The translations under genes were made by a program, and so were the position numbers. Below are positions 1,033 to 7,106 of a DNA stretch of 7,106 nucleotides, piece after piece (within the stretch, counting starts at the first letter, position 1; every line of letters begins with the position of its first letter). A model generated the notes under the pieces. It was given only the letters and a program-made list of their open reading frames with translations, did not search any database and was not told the DNA's origin. Location: NCBI GenBank assembly GCA_019136395.1, contig JAGVUH010000088.1, positions 1 through 7,106 on the forward strand, written 5' to 3'. This DNA is from Gammaproteobacteria bacterium (GTDB taxonomy: Bacteria; Pseudomonadota; Gammaproteobacteria; Chromatiales; Chromatiaceae).

Positions 1033-2061
1033 TTAGACAGGCGGCTTGCGCCGGTTGGGCTTCCCGCTTGGTCGCGGCTGGCTACCGGACCAGGGGCTCG
1101 GCTTCCGGGTATGGGGACGCGGTGGCGAGGGCGGGGCCATGCCGGCCAGCCGCAGGAGACCATCCAGTTCTTCTGGCGTCAGATCGCGCCACTTGTGGCT
1201 GAAGAGGCTCGGTTCGAGGATGACGTTGCCAAAGCGTACCCGCATCAGGCGGCTGACCTTGACGCCCACGGCCTCCCAGAGGCGGCGCACCTCGCGGTTG
1301 CGGCCCTCGCGCAGCAGGACGTGATACCAGCGGTTGGCGCCACGGCTGCTGGTGTCGGACTCGACGATCTCCTCGAAGCGCGCCGGGCCATCGTCCAGTT
1401 CCACGCCATGGACCAGGCGCTGCAGGGCTTCCCGCGGCGCCGTGCCGAGGACGCGCACGGCGTATTCGCGCTCGAGCTCCTGGGAGGGGTGCATCAGCTT
1501 GTTAGCCAGTTCGCCGTTATTGGTCAGCAGCAGCAGGCCGGAGGTGTTGATGTCCAGGCGGCCGATGGCGATCCAACGCCCTTGCAACAGGGGCGGCAGG
1601 CGGTCGAAGACGGTGGGCCGACCCTCCGGGTCCTGGCGGGTGACGATCTCACCCTCGGGCTTGTGGTAGGCGATGACGCGCAGGGGTTCGGCCGTCGTGG
1701 CGGGGGCCAGGCGCAGTGGCTTGCCATCCAGGCGGACCTGGTCGCCGGGACCCAGGCGATCACCGAGCTTGGCGAGTCGGCCATTGATCTCGATGCGGCC
1801 GGCCGTGATCCAGCCCTCGATCTCCCGGCGCGAGCCAAGGCCGGCATCCGCCAAGACCTTCTGGATGCGGGCCGGTTCGACCGCGCTGGGGGGTTGGCTC
1901 GTGCCAGGGCCCTTGCCGCTGGTGGTGGCCTTGGGACGAGCCGCCGTGGTTCCGGATGCGGCGGCCCGGGAGCGGGCGGAGGGAGTGCCATGGCCAGCGG
2001 CTCCCCCGGGATCTGAGCGGCGGGCGTTCTTCGGCGGGTCGGGGCGCTTATCTTTGGTCAT
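1033..2061 (-). CDS. rluB: 23S rRNA pseudouridine(2605) synthase RluB
   Basis: The 342-residue protein belongs to the RsuA/RluB/E/F pseudouridine synthases. In E. coli RluB isomerises U2605 of 23S rRNA near the peptidyl-transferase region. An S4 RNA-binding domain spans about residues 64-112 (RIQKVLADAGLGSRREIEGW...). The catalytic domain follows, with the signature IGRLDINTSGLLLLTN and catalytic Asp at residue 170. The conserved REGRNREVRRLWEAVG lies at 251-266. The first 60 residues are basic and low in complexity (Arg, Ala, Thr, Gly, Pro), and residues 310-342 form a Pro/Arg/Lys tail; such extensions are common in this family in high-GC Gammaproteobacteria and likely aid RNA binding. It starts at ATG with no clear Shine-Dalgarno, 60 nt after scpB, so it is probably translated from the same message. 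The RluB versus RsuA/RluE/RluF choice rests on the scpA-scpB neighbours and overall length. Confidence 0.93.
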   Translation of the reverse strand: MTKDKRPDPPKNARRSDPGGAAGHGTPSARSRAAASGTTAARPKATTSGKGPGTSQPPSAVEPARIQKVLADAGLGSRREIEGWITAGRIEINGRLAKLGDRLGPGDQVRLDGKPLRLAPATTAEPLRVIAYHKPEGEIVTRQDPEGRPTVFDRLPPLLQGRWIAIGRLDINTSGLLLLTNNGELANKLMHPSQELEREYAVRVLGTAPREALQRLVHGVELDDGPARFEEIVESDTSSRGANRWYHVLLREGRNREVRRLWEAVGVKVSRLMRVRFGNVILEPSLFSHKWRDLTPEELDGLLRLAGMAPPSPPRPHTRKPSPWSGSQPRPSGKPNRRKPPV

Positions 2062-2121: not shown

Positions 2122-2778
2122 TCAGGGCAACTCTGCCGCGGCTTGGGCAGGGGCCTGGATCGATGGCGGAGCATCTCCTGGTCCAGCCATACGGCCGTTG
2201 GCTGGTTGCGGTTCCTCCAGCGGCAGGTCGTCCCCAAGAAAGTCCGGCGCGCGGATCTCCGCCAGGGTCGGCAGTTCGTTGAGGGACTTGAGGCCAAAAT
2301 AGTCCAGAAACTTGCGGGTGGTGGCGTAAAGGGCCGGCCGGCCGGGGACGTCGCGGTGGCCGACGACCCGCACCCACTCGCGCTCCAGCAGGGTCTTGAC
2401 GATGTTGGTGCTGACGGCGACGCCGCGGATCTCCTCGATCTCGCCGCGGGTGATAGGCTGACGGTAGGCGATCAGGGCCAGGGTCTCCAGCAGGGCGCGG
2501 GAGTAACGCGGCGGCTTTTCGTCCCAGAGGCGCGCCACCCAGGGAGCGCAAGCCTTGCGCACCTGGATGCGGTAACCGCCGGCGACCTGGGCCAGCTCGA
2601 TGCCCCGGTCCTGGTAGTCCGCTTCCAGGGCGGCCAGGGCGGCGGTGAGCTCCTCCCGGGTCGGCACCGCCTCCTCCTCCTCGGCGAAGAGGCTGGCCAG
2701 GGTCTCCAGGGTCAGGGGGCCACCCGCCGCCAGCAGGGCGCCCTCGACGATGTTCTTGAGGGATGGGCGCTCGCTCAT
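2122..2778 (-). CDS. scpB: Segregation and condensation protein B (ScpB)
   Basis: The 218-residue protein is the winged-helix (kite) subunit of the SMC-ScpAB condensin complex. It binds as a dimer to the ScpA kleisin and helps organise and segregate the chromosome in the cytoplasm. The first winged helix covers about residues 6-75 (LKNIVEGALLAAGGPLTLETL to GGYRIQV). The second covers about 92-165, with the family signature SRALLETLALIAYRQPITRGEIEEIRG and the GRPALYATT wing near 146-154. A Pro/Ala-rich tail from about 187 to 218 is probably unstructured. It begins at ATG 2778 with GGGGA roughly 9 nt upstream. It is separated from scpA by 174 nt holding a G-rich hairpin, unlike the tightly overlapping scpA-scpB pairs of many bacteria. 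Confidence 0.95.
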   Translation of the reverse strand: MSERPSLKNIVEGALLAAGGPLTLETLASLFAEEEEAVPTREELTAALAALEADYQDRGIELAQVAGGYRIQVRKACAPWVARLWDEKPPRYSRALLETLALIAYRQPITRGEIEEIRGVAVSTNIVKTLLEREWVRVVGHRDVPGRPALYATTRKFLDYFGLKSLNELPTLAEIRAPDFLGDDLPLEEPQPANGRMAGPGDAPPSIQAPAQAAAELP

Positions 2779-2952: not shown

Positions 2953-3828
2953 TCAGTTCCCGGTGCGCAGGCGGACATGAATGGGGGCGAAGGGCTCGGC
3001 CTGGACCAGTTCAATGGTGGCGGACTTGATCAGCTCCAGCACCGCCAGAAAGCTCACCACCACCCCTGCCCGGCCCTCGTGGAGCTCGAAGAGGTGAACG
3101 AAGGGGACAAAGCCCATGCCCTGGAGTTTGCCCAGGACGATGGCCATGCGTTCGCGCAGACTCAGGGACTCCTTCTCCACCTTGTGGCTGGTGAACAGGT
3201 CGGCCCGCGCCAGCAGCTCCCGCAGGGCCAGCAGGACCTCGCGCAGATTGACCTCGGGGGGGATGAGGCGGCGATGCCCGGGAGGGACTGGGGCCTGGAC
3301 CAGATAGTGATCGCGCTCCAGGCGCGGCAGTTCATCCAGGTCCTGGGCGGCCTGTTTGAAGCGCTCGTACTCCTGAAGACGACGCACCAGATCAGCCCGG
3401 GGGTCCTCTTCCTCCTCGGTGGCGGGGGGGCGGGGCAGCAGCATGCGCGACTTGATCTCCGCCAGCAGGGCGGCCATCACCAGGTATTCCGCCGCCAGTT
3501 CCAGGCGCATGTCCTTCATCAGCTCAACGTATTCCATGTACTGGTCGGTGATCACGGCAATGGGGATGTCGAGGATGTCCAGGTTCTGGCGCTTGATCAG
3601 GTAAAGCAGCAGGTCCAGGGGCCCCTCGAAGGTGTCGAGGAAGACCTCCAGGGCGTCCGGCGGTATGTAGAGGTCCTGGGGCAGGGTGAGCAGGGGCTGG
3701 CCCTGGACGATGGCGAAGGGCATCTCCCGCTGCTGGGGAGGCCCGGCGGGGACGAAGGCGGGTTCCGTCGCCTCGTCGCTTGTCGCCGTCAGGCCTGCAG
3801 TGTCACTGGCCGGTTTTAGGTCGCTCAA
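2953..3828 (-). CDS. scpA: Segregation and condensation protein A (ScpA)
   Basis: ScpA is the kleisin that bridges the two SMC heads and recruits ScpB in bacterial condensin. The 291-residue frame shows the kleisin N-terminal signature FEGPLDLLLYLIKRQNLDI at about 67-85 and the helix EYLVMAALLAEIKSRMLLP at 114-132, which contacts SMC. A charged linker (TEEEEDPR) follows. The C-terminal winged helix is near 225-288 (VVVSFLAVLELIKSATIELVQ). The start used is TTG at 3828, which overlaps the trpS stop by 4 nt (TTGA), a typical arrangement for translational coupling. Residues 1-35 are low in complexity. An ATG at 3723 (MPFAIVQGQPLL, residue 36) is a possible alternative start that would keep every conserved element. 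Confidence 0.94.
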   Translation of the reverse strand: MSDLKPASDTAGLTATSDEATEPAFVPAGPPQQREMPFAIVQGQPLLTLPQDLYIPPDALEVFLDTFEGPLDLLLYLIKRQNLDILDIPIAVITDQYMEYVELMKDMRLELAAEYLVMAALLAEIKSRMLLPRPPATEEEEDPRADLVRRLQEYERFKQAAQDLDELPRLERDHYLVQAPVPPGHRRLIPPEVNLREVLLALRELLARADLFTSHKVEKESLSLRERMAIVLGKLQGMGFVPFVHLFELHEGRAGVVVSFLAVLELIKSATIELVQAEPFAPIHVRLRTGN

Positions 3829-4838
3829 CGAAAGTCCATGGACATGGCCTGACGCACCTCTTCCATGGTCTTGCGCGCCACCTGACGGGCCGCCTCGTTG
3901 CCCTCGGCGATGATGTTGCGCACCTGCTCCGGTTGCTCCTCAAATTCCCGCGCCCGTTCCTGGATGGGCTTCAGCTCCGCCAGCACGGCGTCGATGACCG
4001 GCTGCTTGCACTCCAGGCAGCCGATGCCCGCCGAGCGGCAGCCCGCCTGAACCCAGGCCCGGGTGTCGTCGTTGGAATAGACCTCATGGAGCTGGAAGAC
4101 GGGGCATTTGGCCGGGTCGCCAGGATCGGTGCGGCGCACCCGCGCCGGGTCCGTGGGCATGGTGCGCAGGGCCTTCTCCACCTGGGCTGGCGGGTCGCGC
4201 AGGGCGATGGTGTTGCCGTAGGACTTGGACATCTTCTGGCCGTCCAGGCCGGGCATCTTGGAGGCCCTGGTCAGCAGGGCCTGGGGCTCGGGCAGGATGA
4301 TGCGGCCGCTGCCCTCCAGGAAGCCGGTGAGGCGCTCGCGATCGGCGTTGCTCAGGTTGCCCTGGGCCTCGATCAGGGCCTGGGCCGTGGCCAGGGCCTC
4401 GTGATCGCCCTGTTCCAGGAAAGACTTGCGCAGCTTGTCGAAGAGTTGGGCGTTCTTCTTGCCCATCTTGTCCCGGGCCTTGGCCGAGCGCTCGGCGAAG
4501 TCCGGCTCGCGGCCGAAGACGTGGTTGAAGCGCCGCGCCACCTCCCGGGTAAGTTCCACATGGGCGACCTGGTCCTCGCCCACCGGCACCAGCCCGGCCT
4601 TGTAAATGAGGATATCGGCGCTCTGCAGCAGGGGATAGCCGAGGAAGCCGTAGGTCGCCAGATCGCGCTCCTTGAGCTTCTCCTGCTGATCCTTGAAGGT
4701 CGGCACCCGCTCCAGCCAGCCCAGCGGGGTGATCATGGACAGCAGCAGGTGCAGCTCGGCATGCTCCATGACCCGCGACTGGACGAAGAGGGTGGCCTTG
4801 GCCGGGTCGATGCCCGCCGCCAGCCAGTCCACCACCAT
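3825..4838 (-). CDS. trpS: TrpRS C-terminal fragment (KMSKS and Fe-S cysteine motif)
   Basis: This is the 337-codon remainder of trpS, read from ATG 4838, which is Met69 of the restored protein. It carries the tryptophan-pocket segment GYPLLQSADIL at 67-77, VPVGEDQVAHVELTREVARRF near 84-104, and GQKMSKSYGN at 200-209. Four cysteines at 245, 267, 274 and 277 follow a C-x21-C-x6-C-x2-C pattern. A similar pattern (C-x22-C-x6-C-x2-C) binds a 4Fe-4S cluster in Thermotoga maritima TrpRS next to the anticodon-binding region. No good Shine-Dalgarno precedes ATG 4838, so independent translation is doubtful. Without the HIGH half the fragment should not be active by itself. Its stop overlaps the scpA start. 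Confidence 0.6.
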   Translation of the reverse strand: MVVDWLAAGIDPAKATLFVQSRVMEHAELHLLLSMITPLGWLERVPTFKDQQEKLKERDLATYGFLGYPLLQSADILIYKAGLVPVGEDQVAHVELTREVARRFNHVFGREPDFAERSAKARDKMGKKNAQLFDKLRKSFLEQGDHEALATAQALIEAQGNLSNADRERLTGFLEGSGRIILPEPQALLTRASKMPGLDGQKMSKSYGNTIALRDPPAQVEKALRTMPTDPARVRRTDPGDPAKCPVFQLHEVYSNDDTRAWVQAGCRSAGIGCLECKQPVIDAVLAELKPIQERAREFEEQPEQVRNIIAEGNEAARQVARKTMEEVRQAMSMDFR

Positions 4839-4980
4839 GTCCCAGATACTGGCGGGGATGATCGAGGGGTCCTCGTAATGGGTGGTCAGGGCATGCCCGC
4901 CGCCAGCCAGTCCACCACCATGTCCCAGATACTGGCGGGGATGATCGAGGGGTCCTCGTAATGGGTGGTCAGGGCATGCC
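4810..4980. repeat. Perfect 83-bp tandem duplication inside trpS
   Basis: Bases 4810-4892 and 4893-4975 are identical, and the first five bases of the unit (ATGCC) occur a third time at 4976-4980. Identity therefore extends over 88 bp at an 83-bp offset. The flanking bases differ on both sides (G4809 against C4892, C4898 against A4981). A 5-bp repeat bordering a duplicated unit is the usual signature of replication slippage or microhomology-mediated tandem duplication. The absence of any mismatch means the event is recent, or is an artefact of read assembly. Confidence 0.97.
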
Positions 4981-5125
4981 AGTCGGCGACGAAGAAGAAG
5001 CAGTCGTAATCGTGCTGCAACTCGACCCAGTTTTTGAGGACACCGTGGTAATGACCCAGGTGCAGACGGCCGGTGGGCCGCATGCCGGAGAGGACGCGTC
5101 CGTTGGAGGTGGTGGCGGAGTTCAA
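4886..5125 (-). CDS. trpS: TrpRS N-terminal fragment (HIGH motif), truncated by the duplication
   Basis: These 79 codons encode the start of the Rossmann fold: GRVLSGMRPTGRLHLGHYHG at 9-28, then FFFVADWHALTTHYEDP. It reads through the first-met copy of the duplicated segment and ends MP-stop, where the second copy begins out of frame. It starts at TTG with GGGGAA about 10 nt upstream. It contains the ATP-binding HIGH signature but lacks the tryptophan pocket and KMSKS loop. Confidence 0.6.
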   Translation of the reverse strand: MNSATTSNGRVLSGMRPTGRLHLGHYHGVLKNWVELQHDYDCFFFVADWHALTTHYEDPSIIPASIWDMVVDWLAAGMP

Positions 5126-5386
5126 GGCGGGAATTCCCCGATAGGTTCAGCGATGGAGGTTGAAAGGAGCAAAATCAGCGTGGAAGACACCCGGCTTGGG
5201 CATGGCACCCCAGTATGGCCCTTTGATCAGCGGAGAGTTGCGAGGTCACTCCTGCAAGTGAGGGTTGGTGCCGAGATGAAGAGGGCAACTACAGGTGAAC
5301 ACTGCGGCTGGACCTGCACTTCGGCGAGGAGTTGATCCACCGCTTAGTACTCAGATGTGGGTATGGGTCATGGGCGCCGGCCAGAT
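5126..5386. other. Spacer between the M50 protease gene and trpS
   Basis: These 261 nt hold no gene that I can support. A short inverted repeat TCACT/AGTGA (5246-5250 with 5257-5261) is visible. A 33-codon minus-strand frame (5245-5147) without a good start was considered and not called. The trpS leader and any trpS promoter should lie in the part near 5126-5200, but no convincing -35/-10 pair was found. Confidence 0.45.
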
Positions 5387-6058
5387 TCAGGTCATGAAGA
5401 TCTCCCGCACCACCCCGGCCCCAGGCATCAGGCCGATGGTCAGGTCGATCAGGGGGCTCAGCAGGGTGCTCAGCATCCCCGTGACCAGCAGGATCACCAG
5501 CAGGATGAGGCCGTAGGGCTCCAGACGGGCAAAGGGGATGGCCAGGCGGCGCGGCAGCAGGGCGTTGAGCACCCGTCCGCCGTCCAGGGGCAGGAGGGGG
5601 AAGAGGTTGAGCACCATCAACAAGACATTAATCAGCACCCCGGCGGCGCCCATGTAGGCCAGGGGTTGCGCCACCCAGGGACTGACGTGCCACAAGGCCA
5701 GGGCCAACTGAATTGCCAGGCCCCACAGGATCGCCATCACCAGATTAGCGCCCGGTCCCGCCAGGGCGACCAGGGCCATGTCGCGGCGCGGCTGATGCAG
5801 GTTGCGGACATCCACCGGGACCGGCTTGGCCCAGCCAAAGAGGAACCCGGTGAGAAAATAGGTGGCCAGGGGCACCAGTAGGGTGCCGATGGGGTCGATG
5901 TGCTTGAGCGGATTCAGCGTCACCCGGCCCAGCAGGCGCGCCGTGCGGTCCCCCAGATGACCGGCGGCCCAGCCGTGGGCGGCTTCGTGGACCGTGATGG
6001 CGAAGAGCACCGGCAGGATGAGGATGGCCAGGAGCTGAATATGATTGAGGATGTCCAT
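5387..6058 (-). CDS. M50-family (site-2 protease type) membrane zinc metalloprotease
   Basis: The 223-residue protein is almost entirely hydrophobic, with about five to six membrane spans. The first helix holds the zinc-binding motif HEAAH at 24-28 (Glu25 catalytic). [13 protein letters not shown] at about 151-163 supplies the third zinc ligand, Asp159, in the N-x-x-P-x-x-PLDGG signature of site-2 proteases. [11 protein letters not shown] at 100-110 is also typical. The PDZ domain of RseP is absent, so this is the small PDZ-less group often annotated only as site-2 protease family protein. Such proteins cut substrates within the membrane; the target here is unknown. In many Gammaproteobacteria this gene lies just upstream of trpS, as here, but 261 nt separate the two, so trpS may have its own promoter. 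ATG 6058 has no Shine-Dalgarno. Confidence 0.9.
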
Positions 6059-6372: not shown

Positions 6373-7106
6373 ATGTCCGACACCCAGAACGCCGCCTCGT
6401 CCCCGGCCCCGGGCAAGACCAACTTCATCCGCCAGATCATCGAGCAGGACCTGGCCAGCGGTAAGCATGCCCGCATCCACACGCGCTTTCCGCCGGAGCC
6501 CAACGGCTATCTGCACATCGGTCACGCCAAGTCCATCGTCCTCAACTTTGGTCTCGCGGAGGACTACCGGGGACAGTGCAATCTGCGCTTCGACGACACC
6601 AATCCGCATAAGGAGAACGTCGAGTTCGTCGAGGCCATCCAGGCGGACGTGCGCTGGCTGGGCTATGACTGGGGCGAGCGGACCTATTTCGCCTCGGATT
6701 ATTTTCAGCAGCTCCATGATTTTGCCGTCGACCTGATCCGTCAGGGCCTGGCCTACGTCTGCGACCTGGACGCCGAGCAGACCCGGGCCTACCGCGGCAC
6801 CCTGACCGAGCCGGGTCAGGACAGCCCTTACCGCAACCGTAGCGTCGCGGAGAACCTGGACCTCTTCGCCCGCATGCGCGCCGGCGAGTTTCCGGATGGC
6901 GCCCGCACCCTGCGCGCCCGGATCGACATGGCCGCGCCCAACATCAATCTGCGCGATCCGGTCCTGTACCGCATCAAGCACGGGGTGACCCACCACCAGA
7001 CCGGCAGCGAGTGGTGTCTCTACCCCATGTATGACTACACCCACCCCATCTCCGACGCCCTGGAAGGCATCACCCACTCCCTGTGCACCCTGGAGTTCGA
7101 GGACCA
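6373..7106 (+). CDS. glnS: Glutaminyl-tRNA synthetase, N-terminal part (3' end outside window)
   Basis: The frame encodes 244 complete residues and runs off the window. GlnRS is a class I synthetase that charges tRNA-Gln with glutamine using ATP. The Rossmann fold begins near residue 34. [17 protein letters not shown] at 39-55 contains HIGH (48-51). [18 protein letters not shown] at 72-89 and [20 protein letters not shown] at 217-236 are strong GlnRS signatures, the latter part of the amino-acid and tRNA acceptor pocket. The KMSKS loop and anticodon-binding beta barrels should follow after 7106. Residues 1-15 are low in complexity. An in-frame ATG at 6355 (MAGYLP before MSDTQN) is an alternative start; neither has a well-placed Shine-Dalgarno. 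It is transcribed away from the M50 protease gene. GlnRS rather than GluRS is supported by [15 protein letters not shown]. Confidence 0.95.

Follow-up and report, generated by a model that had tools for sequence, protein, structure and literature searches.

An exact 83-bp tandem repeat that splits trpS on a Chromatiaceae contig: most likely an error of library or assembly, failing that a transient mutation

On a single contig of an uncultured Chromatiaceae-like bacterium, trpS, the gene for tryptophanyl-tRNA synthetase (TrpRS), is interrupted by a tandem repeat of 83 bp. A cell without TrpRS cannot translate, and to our knowledge the enzyme has no substitute in bacteria. The question raised by this locus is whether the repeat belongs to the organism or to the record. 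If true at high frequency, the two-copy state would describe a cell that lives, or is reversibly arrested, with no intact TrpRS, and that would be a surprise. For now the locus serves as a warning: where a single contig shows an exact repeat within an essential gene, the reads should be inspected before biology is built upon it. We analyzed the window (the whole stretch of 7,106 nucleotides) together with the corresponding loci of relatives, starting from a sequence-only reading that had proposed a recent duplication and, among its explanations, both a reversible on/off state and a wrong assembly. The parts of the repeat are as follows.

4810 to 4892, minus strand: copy of the 83-bp unit, second in the reading order of the trpS transcript (comparison of the copies).
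4893 to 4975, minus strand: copy of the 83-bp unit, first in the reading order of the trpS transcript (comparison of the copies).
4976 to 4980, minus strand: 5-bp junction homology, ATGCC on the plus strand, the same as the start of each copy (maximal exact repeat of 88 nt at period 83).

The copies at 4810 to 4892 and 4893 to 4975 are each 83 nt long, are arranged head to tail, and are 100% identical; an exact adjacent pair of 83-mers is no chance match. The maximal exact repeat has a period of 83 and extends over 88 nt (4810 to 4897 versus 4893 to 4980), with the ATGCC common to the edge of both copies supplying the 5 bp beyond one unit. Two exact tandem copies and a short junction homology, the marks of a microhomology-mediated tandem duplication, were therefore both present, with a unit of 83 nt and a homology of 5 bp. 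No other exact direct repeat of at least 18 nt was found in the whole window. A hairpin or inverted repeat was considered as the cause of the duplication and rejected, no inverted pair being found between 4600 and 5300. These results bear out the earlier description of two adjacent identical copies with ATGCC, and the proposal that the duplication is recent is supported by the lack of any difference between the copies and of any further stop or frame break in the two gene pieces, which are the following.

4886 to 5125, minus strand: N-terminal piece of TrpRS, 79 codons, with HLGH, a TTG start, and a TGA in the copy read second (open reading frame, NF008922 match, alignment to the intact protein P0001).
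3825 to 4838, minus strand: C-terminal piece of TrpRS, 337 aa, with KMSKS (open reading frame, NF008922 match, alignment to P0001).

The open reading frame of the N-terminal piece (5125 to 4886) closes at a TGA at 4888 to 4886, just within the copy read second, and the C-terminal piece (4838 to 3825) lies in the −1 frame relative to it, as expected from the claim that the 83-bp unit breaks the trpS frame and stops it after 79 codons. Upstream of the C-terminal piece, no in-frame ATG, GTG, or TTG was found back to the stop at 5175 to 5177. On the NCBIfam profile NF008922 (tryptophan--tRNA ligase; length 400), the N-terminal piece matches positions 3 to 73 and the C-terminal piece positions 64 to 399; relative to the cut-off of 572 bits, the C-terminal piece alone scored 600.9 (over) and the N-terminal piece alone 142.4. 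Within either piece, the open reading frames and the profile match revealed no further stop or frame break. In the numbering of P0001, HLGH (22 to 25) falls in the N-terminal piece and KMSKS (270 to 274) in the C-terminal piece, and no single polypeptide of the split gene carries both a HIGH-type and a KMSKS motif. We take HLGH and KMSKS to be the signature motifs of class I synthetases; since they stand on separate pieces, and from what is known of this enzyme class, neither the N-terminal nor the C-terminal piece should be active alone.

To place the split gene among its relatives, we relied on protein and genome-contig comparisons. A protein search with the 337-aa C-terminal piece (7,999 candidates scored, 120 listed) yielded, among the matches listed, P0001, an intact TrpRS of 405 aa in a cluster of 59 sequences; the nearest named relatives of P0001 are Chromatiaceae. 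P0001 is like the window's pieces in sequence but runs in one open frame without the duplication. It is identical at 332 of 337 residues to the C-terminal piece and at 75 of 78 to the N-terminal piece; one of the three N-terminal mismatches comes from the reading of the start codon and another from the frame break. Near-identity with mismatches indicates that P0001 derives from a sister strain and is not the same DNA. When aligned to it, the two pieces cover residues 1 to 77 and 69 to 405, with no residue missing, which appears consistent with the full enzyme of 405 residues predicted earlier for a single-copy gene.

Scanning of genome contigs detected at least 577 related places, and the best 80 were retained as loci. 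Both gene ends were on the contig in 79 of the 80, trpS being cut by the contig end in the eightieth (L012). The sequence-only reading had suggested aligning trpS with that of the nearest relatives; in this alignment, the gene ran through in one unbroken frame without a stop in 79 of 79 loci with both ends. All 79 relatives were single-copy, although they belong to other species (79% protein identity for the nearest), and the sister strain represented by P0001 was intact. Spacing from the N-terminal to the C-terminal piece was constant in 78 of these 79 and 6 nt longer in L065.

We also asked how many trpS genes such genomes hold. In each of 16 relative genomes (those behind 16 of the 80 loci, with completeness not stated), the trpS cut-off was passed at one place, as two stretches in one frame (16/16), and a close protein query gave one match per genome in 5 of 5 among them. 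Five weaker matches below the trpS cut-off in the relative genomes are probably tyrosyl-tRNA synthetases. Because each of the 16 genomes has one trpS over the cut-off, a spare copy in the window's organism seems unlikely. Finished Escherichia coli genomes gave a trpS match in 5,375 of 5,426 cases, at exactly one place each and with at least 80% query coverage, and 60 rows sampled at even steps were all full length in one piece. At this setting, 51 of the 5,426 had no trpS match, and one match lay on a record labeled as a plasmid.

Exact tandem pairs with a period of 25 to 300 were then counted in 82 records (864,737 bases), the window and an E. coli stretch included. A unit of at least 60 nt (60 to 300) occurred only in the window and in L051 (74 nt), and tandem units of 28 to 45 nt occurred in L016 and L065. 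The repeat in L051 is exact, starts from position 2983, and comprises ∼2.4 copies of its 74-nt unit. Short homologies of the kind seen at the trpS junction are plentiful: trpS contains 265 pairs of microhomologies, each at least 5 bp long and spaced 30 to 200 apart, and the window has pairs as long as 11 bp. With 265 comparable pairs in the gene, the repeat site is not marked out as an evolved or built switch. Under a simple model, random blunt joins are expected to show at least 5 bp of junction homology ∼0.7% of the time, so the duplication was probably joined via the 5-bp homology. Such a junction fits slippage or template switching in the cell, the same events during library amplification, or a false merge of reads over a short overlap. 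In a protein search with the 79-aa piece, the junction was not seen again among the matches listed (120 of 998), the best of which was 91% identical and 92 aa long, and a 24-base junction pattern gave 0 exact matches in viral contigs, a collection where trpS is not expected.

Taking these comparisons together, we consider it somewhat better than an even bet (probability of about 0.55) that the 83-bp repeat is a fault of the record, introduced in the library or the assembly, and does not reflect the standing genotype of the organism. Wrong assembly had been named as an alternative by the sequence-only reading itself, and it is the explanation that we rate highest, at those same slightly favorable odds. 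Amplification of the library could produce a chimeric molecule, through a template switch at the 5-bp ATGCC, in which a single unit is doubled; alternatively, reads from one place could be joined falsely over a short overlap, with the same result. Thin local coverage would then let the two-unit form persist in the consensus. The repeat, its 5-bp junction homology, the frame break, and the unbroken trpS of the relatives examined are observed; a single copy in the cells, thin coverage, and the step that introduced the error are inferred. We prefer this explanation because TrpRS is essential, the relatives searched have one gene for it, and both pieces are otherwise undamaged. Moreover, a lethal slippage allele would lie far below the depth that an assembler prefers, and a chimera at a thin spot can become the consensus, which again favors error. 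The unbroken trpS of all 79 relatives whose contigs include both gene ends and the intact sister-strain P0001 point the same way: with trpS intact in related bacteria, the likeliest source of the repeat is a fault in library or assembly, or failing that a transient mutation, rather than a new biological switch. This preference is an argument from likelihood.

Several observations count against an error of the record. A 5-bp microhomology is exactly what real slippage leaves, and short-read assemblers collapse repeats more often than they create them. In the other 81 records, most of them contigs of metagenome-assembled genomes (MAGs) by title, exact tandem pairs of comparable size were seldom seen, which suggests that such errors are uncommon; the E. 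coli control consisted of finished genomes, not metagenome contigs, with the 51 genomes lacking a match left aside. No description of this kind of artifact was found among the open-access papers listed. Plain k-mer overlap concatenation (k = 83) was also considered as the source of the error and was downgraded, since it would leave the 5-bp junction homology to chance, with a likelihood of ∼0.7%. It was considered because 83 is among the MEGAHIT k-mer sizes (23, 43, 63, 83, 103, 123) in a JGI metatranscriptome assembly command (PMC6243002), which counts for an error of the record. With open reading frames at both of its ends, the window is itself probably a metagenome contig.

The explanation that competes most directly with an error of the record is a real and very recent microhomology-mediated tandem duplication, arising by slippage or template switching at ATGCC in one cell line. 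The resulting null trpS allele would disappear, either because its cells die or because it reverts through the 88 bp of identity, and would have been caught by chance. We regard this as possible but doubtful. It accounts for the 5-bp junction homology, the exact copies, and the lack of any further stop or frame break in trpS, and it belongs to a known class of mutation, as described in a review (PMC13207564). On the other hand, a lethal allele should be rare while a contig shows the common path, the sister strain P0001 has an intact gene, and no second record of the junction appeared among the matches listed (120 of 998 protein matches) or in the viral contigs. The duplication could instead be real and tolerated, through another TrpRS or through polyploid cells with intact and broken alleles side by side. 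Some large sulfur bacteria are polyploid, which gives this explanation a foothold; nevertheless, the finding of one trpS above the cut-off in each of the 16 relatives searched and the single place per matching E. coli genome speak against it, and a dispensable copy would be expected to gather lesions in time, of which none were seen in the pieces. We judge it improbable. An active TrpRS built from the two pieces (79 and 337 residues), or a −1 frameshift that joins them, is possible in principle, and the overlap of the pieces at residues 69 to 77 with no residue missing and the C-piece frame that is open across the full length of the N-terminal piece are all that we found in its favor. By eye, no clear ribosome site precedes the ATG at 4838. 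Frameshifting close to the junction would burden the catalytic domain with ∼28 additional residues, frameshifting at the earlier C AAA AAC run in the N-terminal piece would give wrong residues from there to the junction, and the gene is unsplit in 79 of 79 relatives. We therefore find a working split enzyme scarcely credible. Frameshift rescue in particular was rejected despite the open C-piece frame, a canonical slippery heptamer being absent at the junction by eye.

The sequence-only reading had also raised the possibility of a reversible on/off state. In pneumococcus, spontaneous sequence duplications within the capsule genes cap8E and tts are reportedly a control of phase variation. The trpS repeat is likewise a duplication within a bacterial gene; unlike the capsule genes, which are linked to a surface trait, trpS is an essential translation gene, with no evidence of variation. 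In the fission yeast gene ssp1, microhomology-mediated tandem duplications are reported to be reversible (Dan et al. 2021, as cited in PMC13207564). The trpS repeat shares with these the two-copy structure, the short-homology edges, and the premature stop in a coding region; in contrast to ssp1, where reversibility is reported in cells, it is known from a single contig and concerns an essential enzyme. Its anatomy resembles the ssp1 and capsule-gene cases, which are made biological by presence in cells and reversion. No report of a tandem duplication in trpS was found among the open-access papers listed (subscription papers being mostly outside this scope). An off switch, in which duplication and collapse toggle trpS in the manner of the pneumococcal capsule genes, would draw on the 88 nt of tandem identity, which can collapse to one copy. 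Tandem duplication recombination is named as one mechanism of the localized hypermutation behind phase variation (PMC4235727), and in-gene duplications are reported as controlling phase variation in capsule genes (title of Waite et al. 2003, as cited in PMC11272040) and as reversible in ssp1 (PMC13207564). According to PMC2884548, ∼10⁻⁴ of cells recombine tandem repeats of 1 kb, longer than the repeat here. Against a switch, 79 of 79 relatives are single-copy, though they belong to other species; 265 such pairs (at least 5 bp, spacing 30 to 200) occur in trpS, the site being just one of them, with pairs of up to 11 bp in the window; and with trpS off, translation stops, which should kill or arrest the cell. 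We consider such a switch very unlikely, and we give next to no credence to its fuller form, in which a subpopulation of the uncultured Chromatiaceae-like bacterium would switch translation off by reversible trpS duplication and arrested cells would recover on collapse of the 88-bp repeat. Of the earlier interpretation, three points are supported, namely that trpS is split, that its frame is broken, and that the duplication is recent; the on/off state found no support, the relatives lacking the repeat, similar microhomology pairs being numerous, and the junction not recurring among the matches listed (120 of 998 protein matches) or in the viral contigs.

The genes around trpS in the window are as follows.

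2953 to 3828, minus strand: scpA, overlapping the trpS stop, open frame (open reading frame, family match).
2122 to 2778, minus strand: scpB, open frame (open reading frame, family match).
1033 to 2061, minus strand: rluB, open frame (open reading frame, family match).
5387 to 6058, minus strand: M50-family peptidase gene, upstream of trpS, open frame (open reading frame, family match).

The order M50 peptidase, trpS, scpA, scpB, rluB was kept in 32 of 32 loci in which all five genes were matched; in the remaining loci of the 80, some of the five were absent, past the contig end, or below threshold. One locus titled as a Klebsiella pneumoniae MAG (L064) has a trpS 70% identical to the window's C-terminal piece and the order scpA-scpB-rluB, and its title is probably wrong. 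The 5′ part of glnS lies at 6373 to 7104 on the plus strand, adjoining the trpS operon; the 80 loci of relatives did not show glnS in a comparable place, apart from one weak match (L059). At the other end, a partial gene at 1 to 420 on the plus strand, open at the window start, has a weak match to Sulfotransfer_2 (PF03567, 27.1 bits versus 22). It is followed at 421 to 1032 by ∼600 bases without an assigned gene and with short open reading frames only, including one at 522 to 737 without a Pfam match. Between scpA and scpB, at 2818 to 2890, an intergenic stretch that by eye is C-rich and then G-rich may correspond to a dispersed intergenic repeat.
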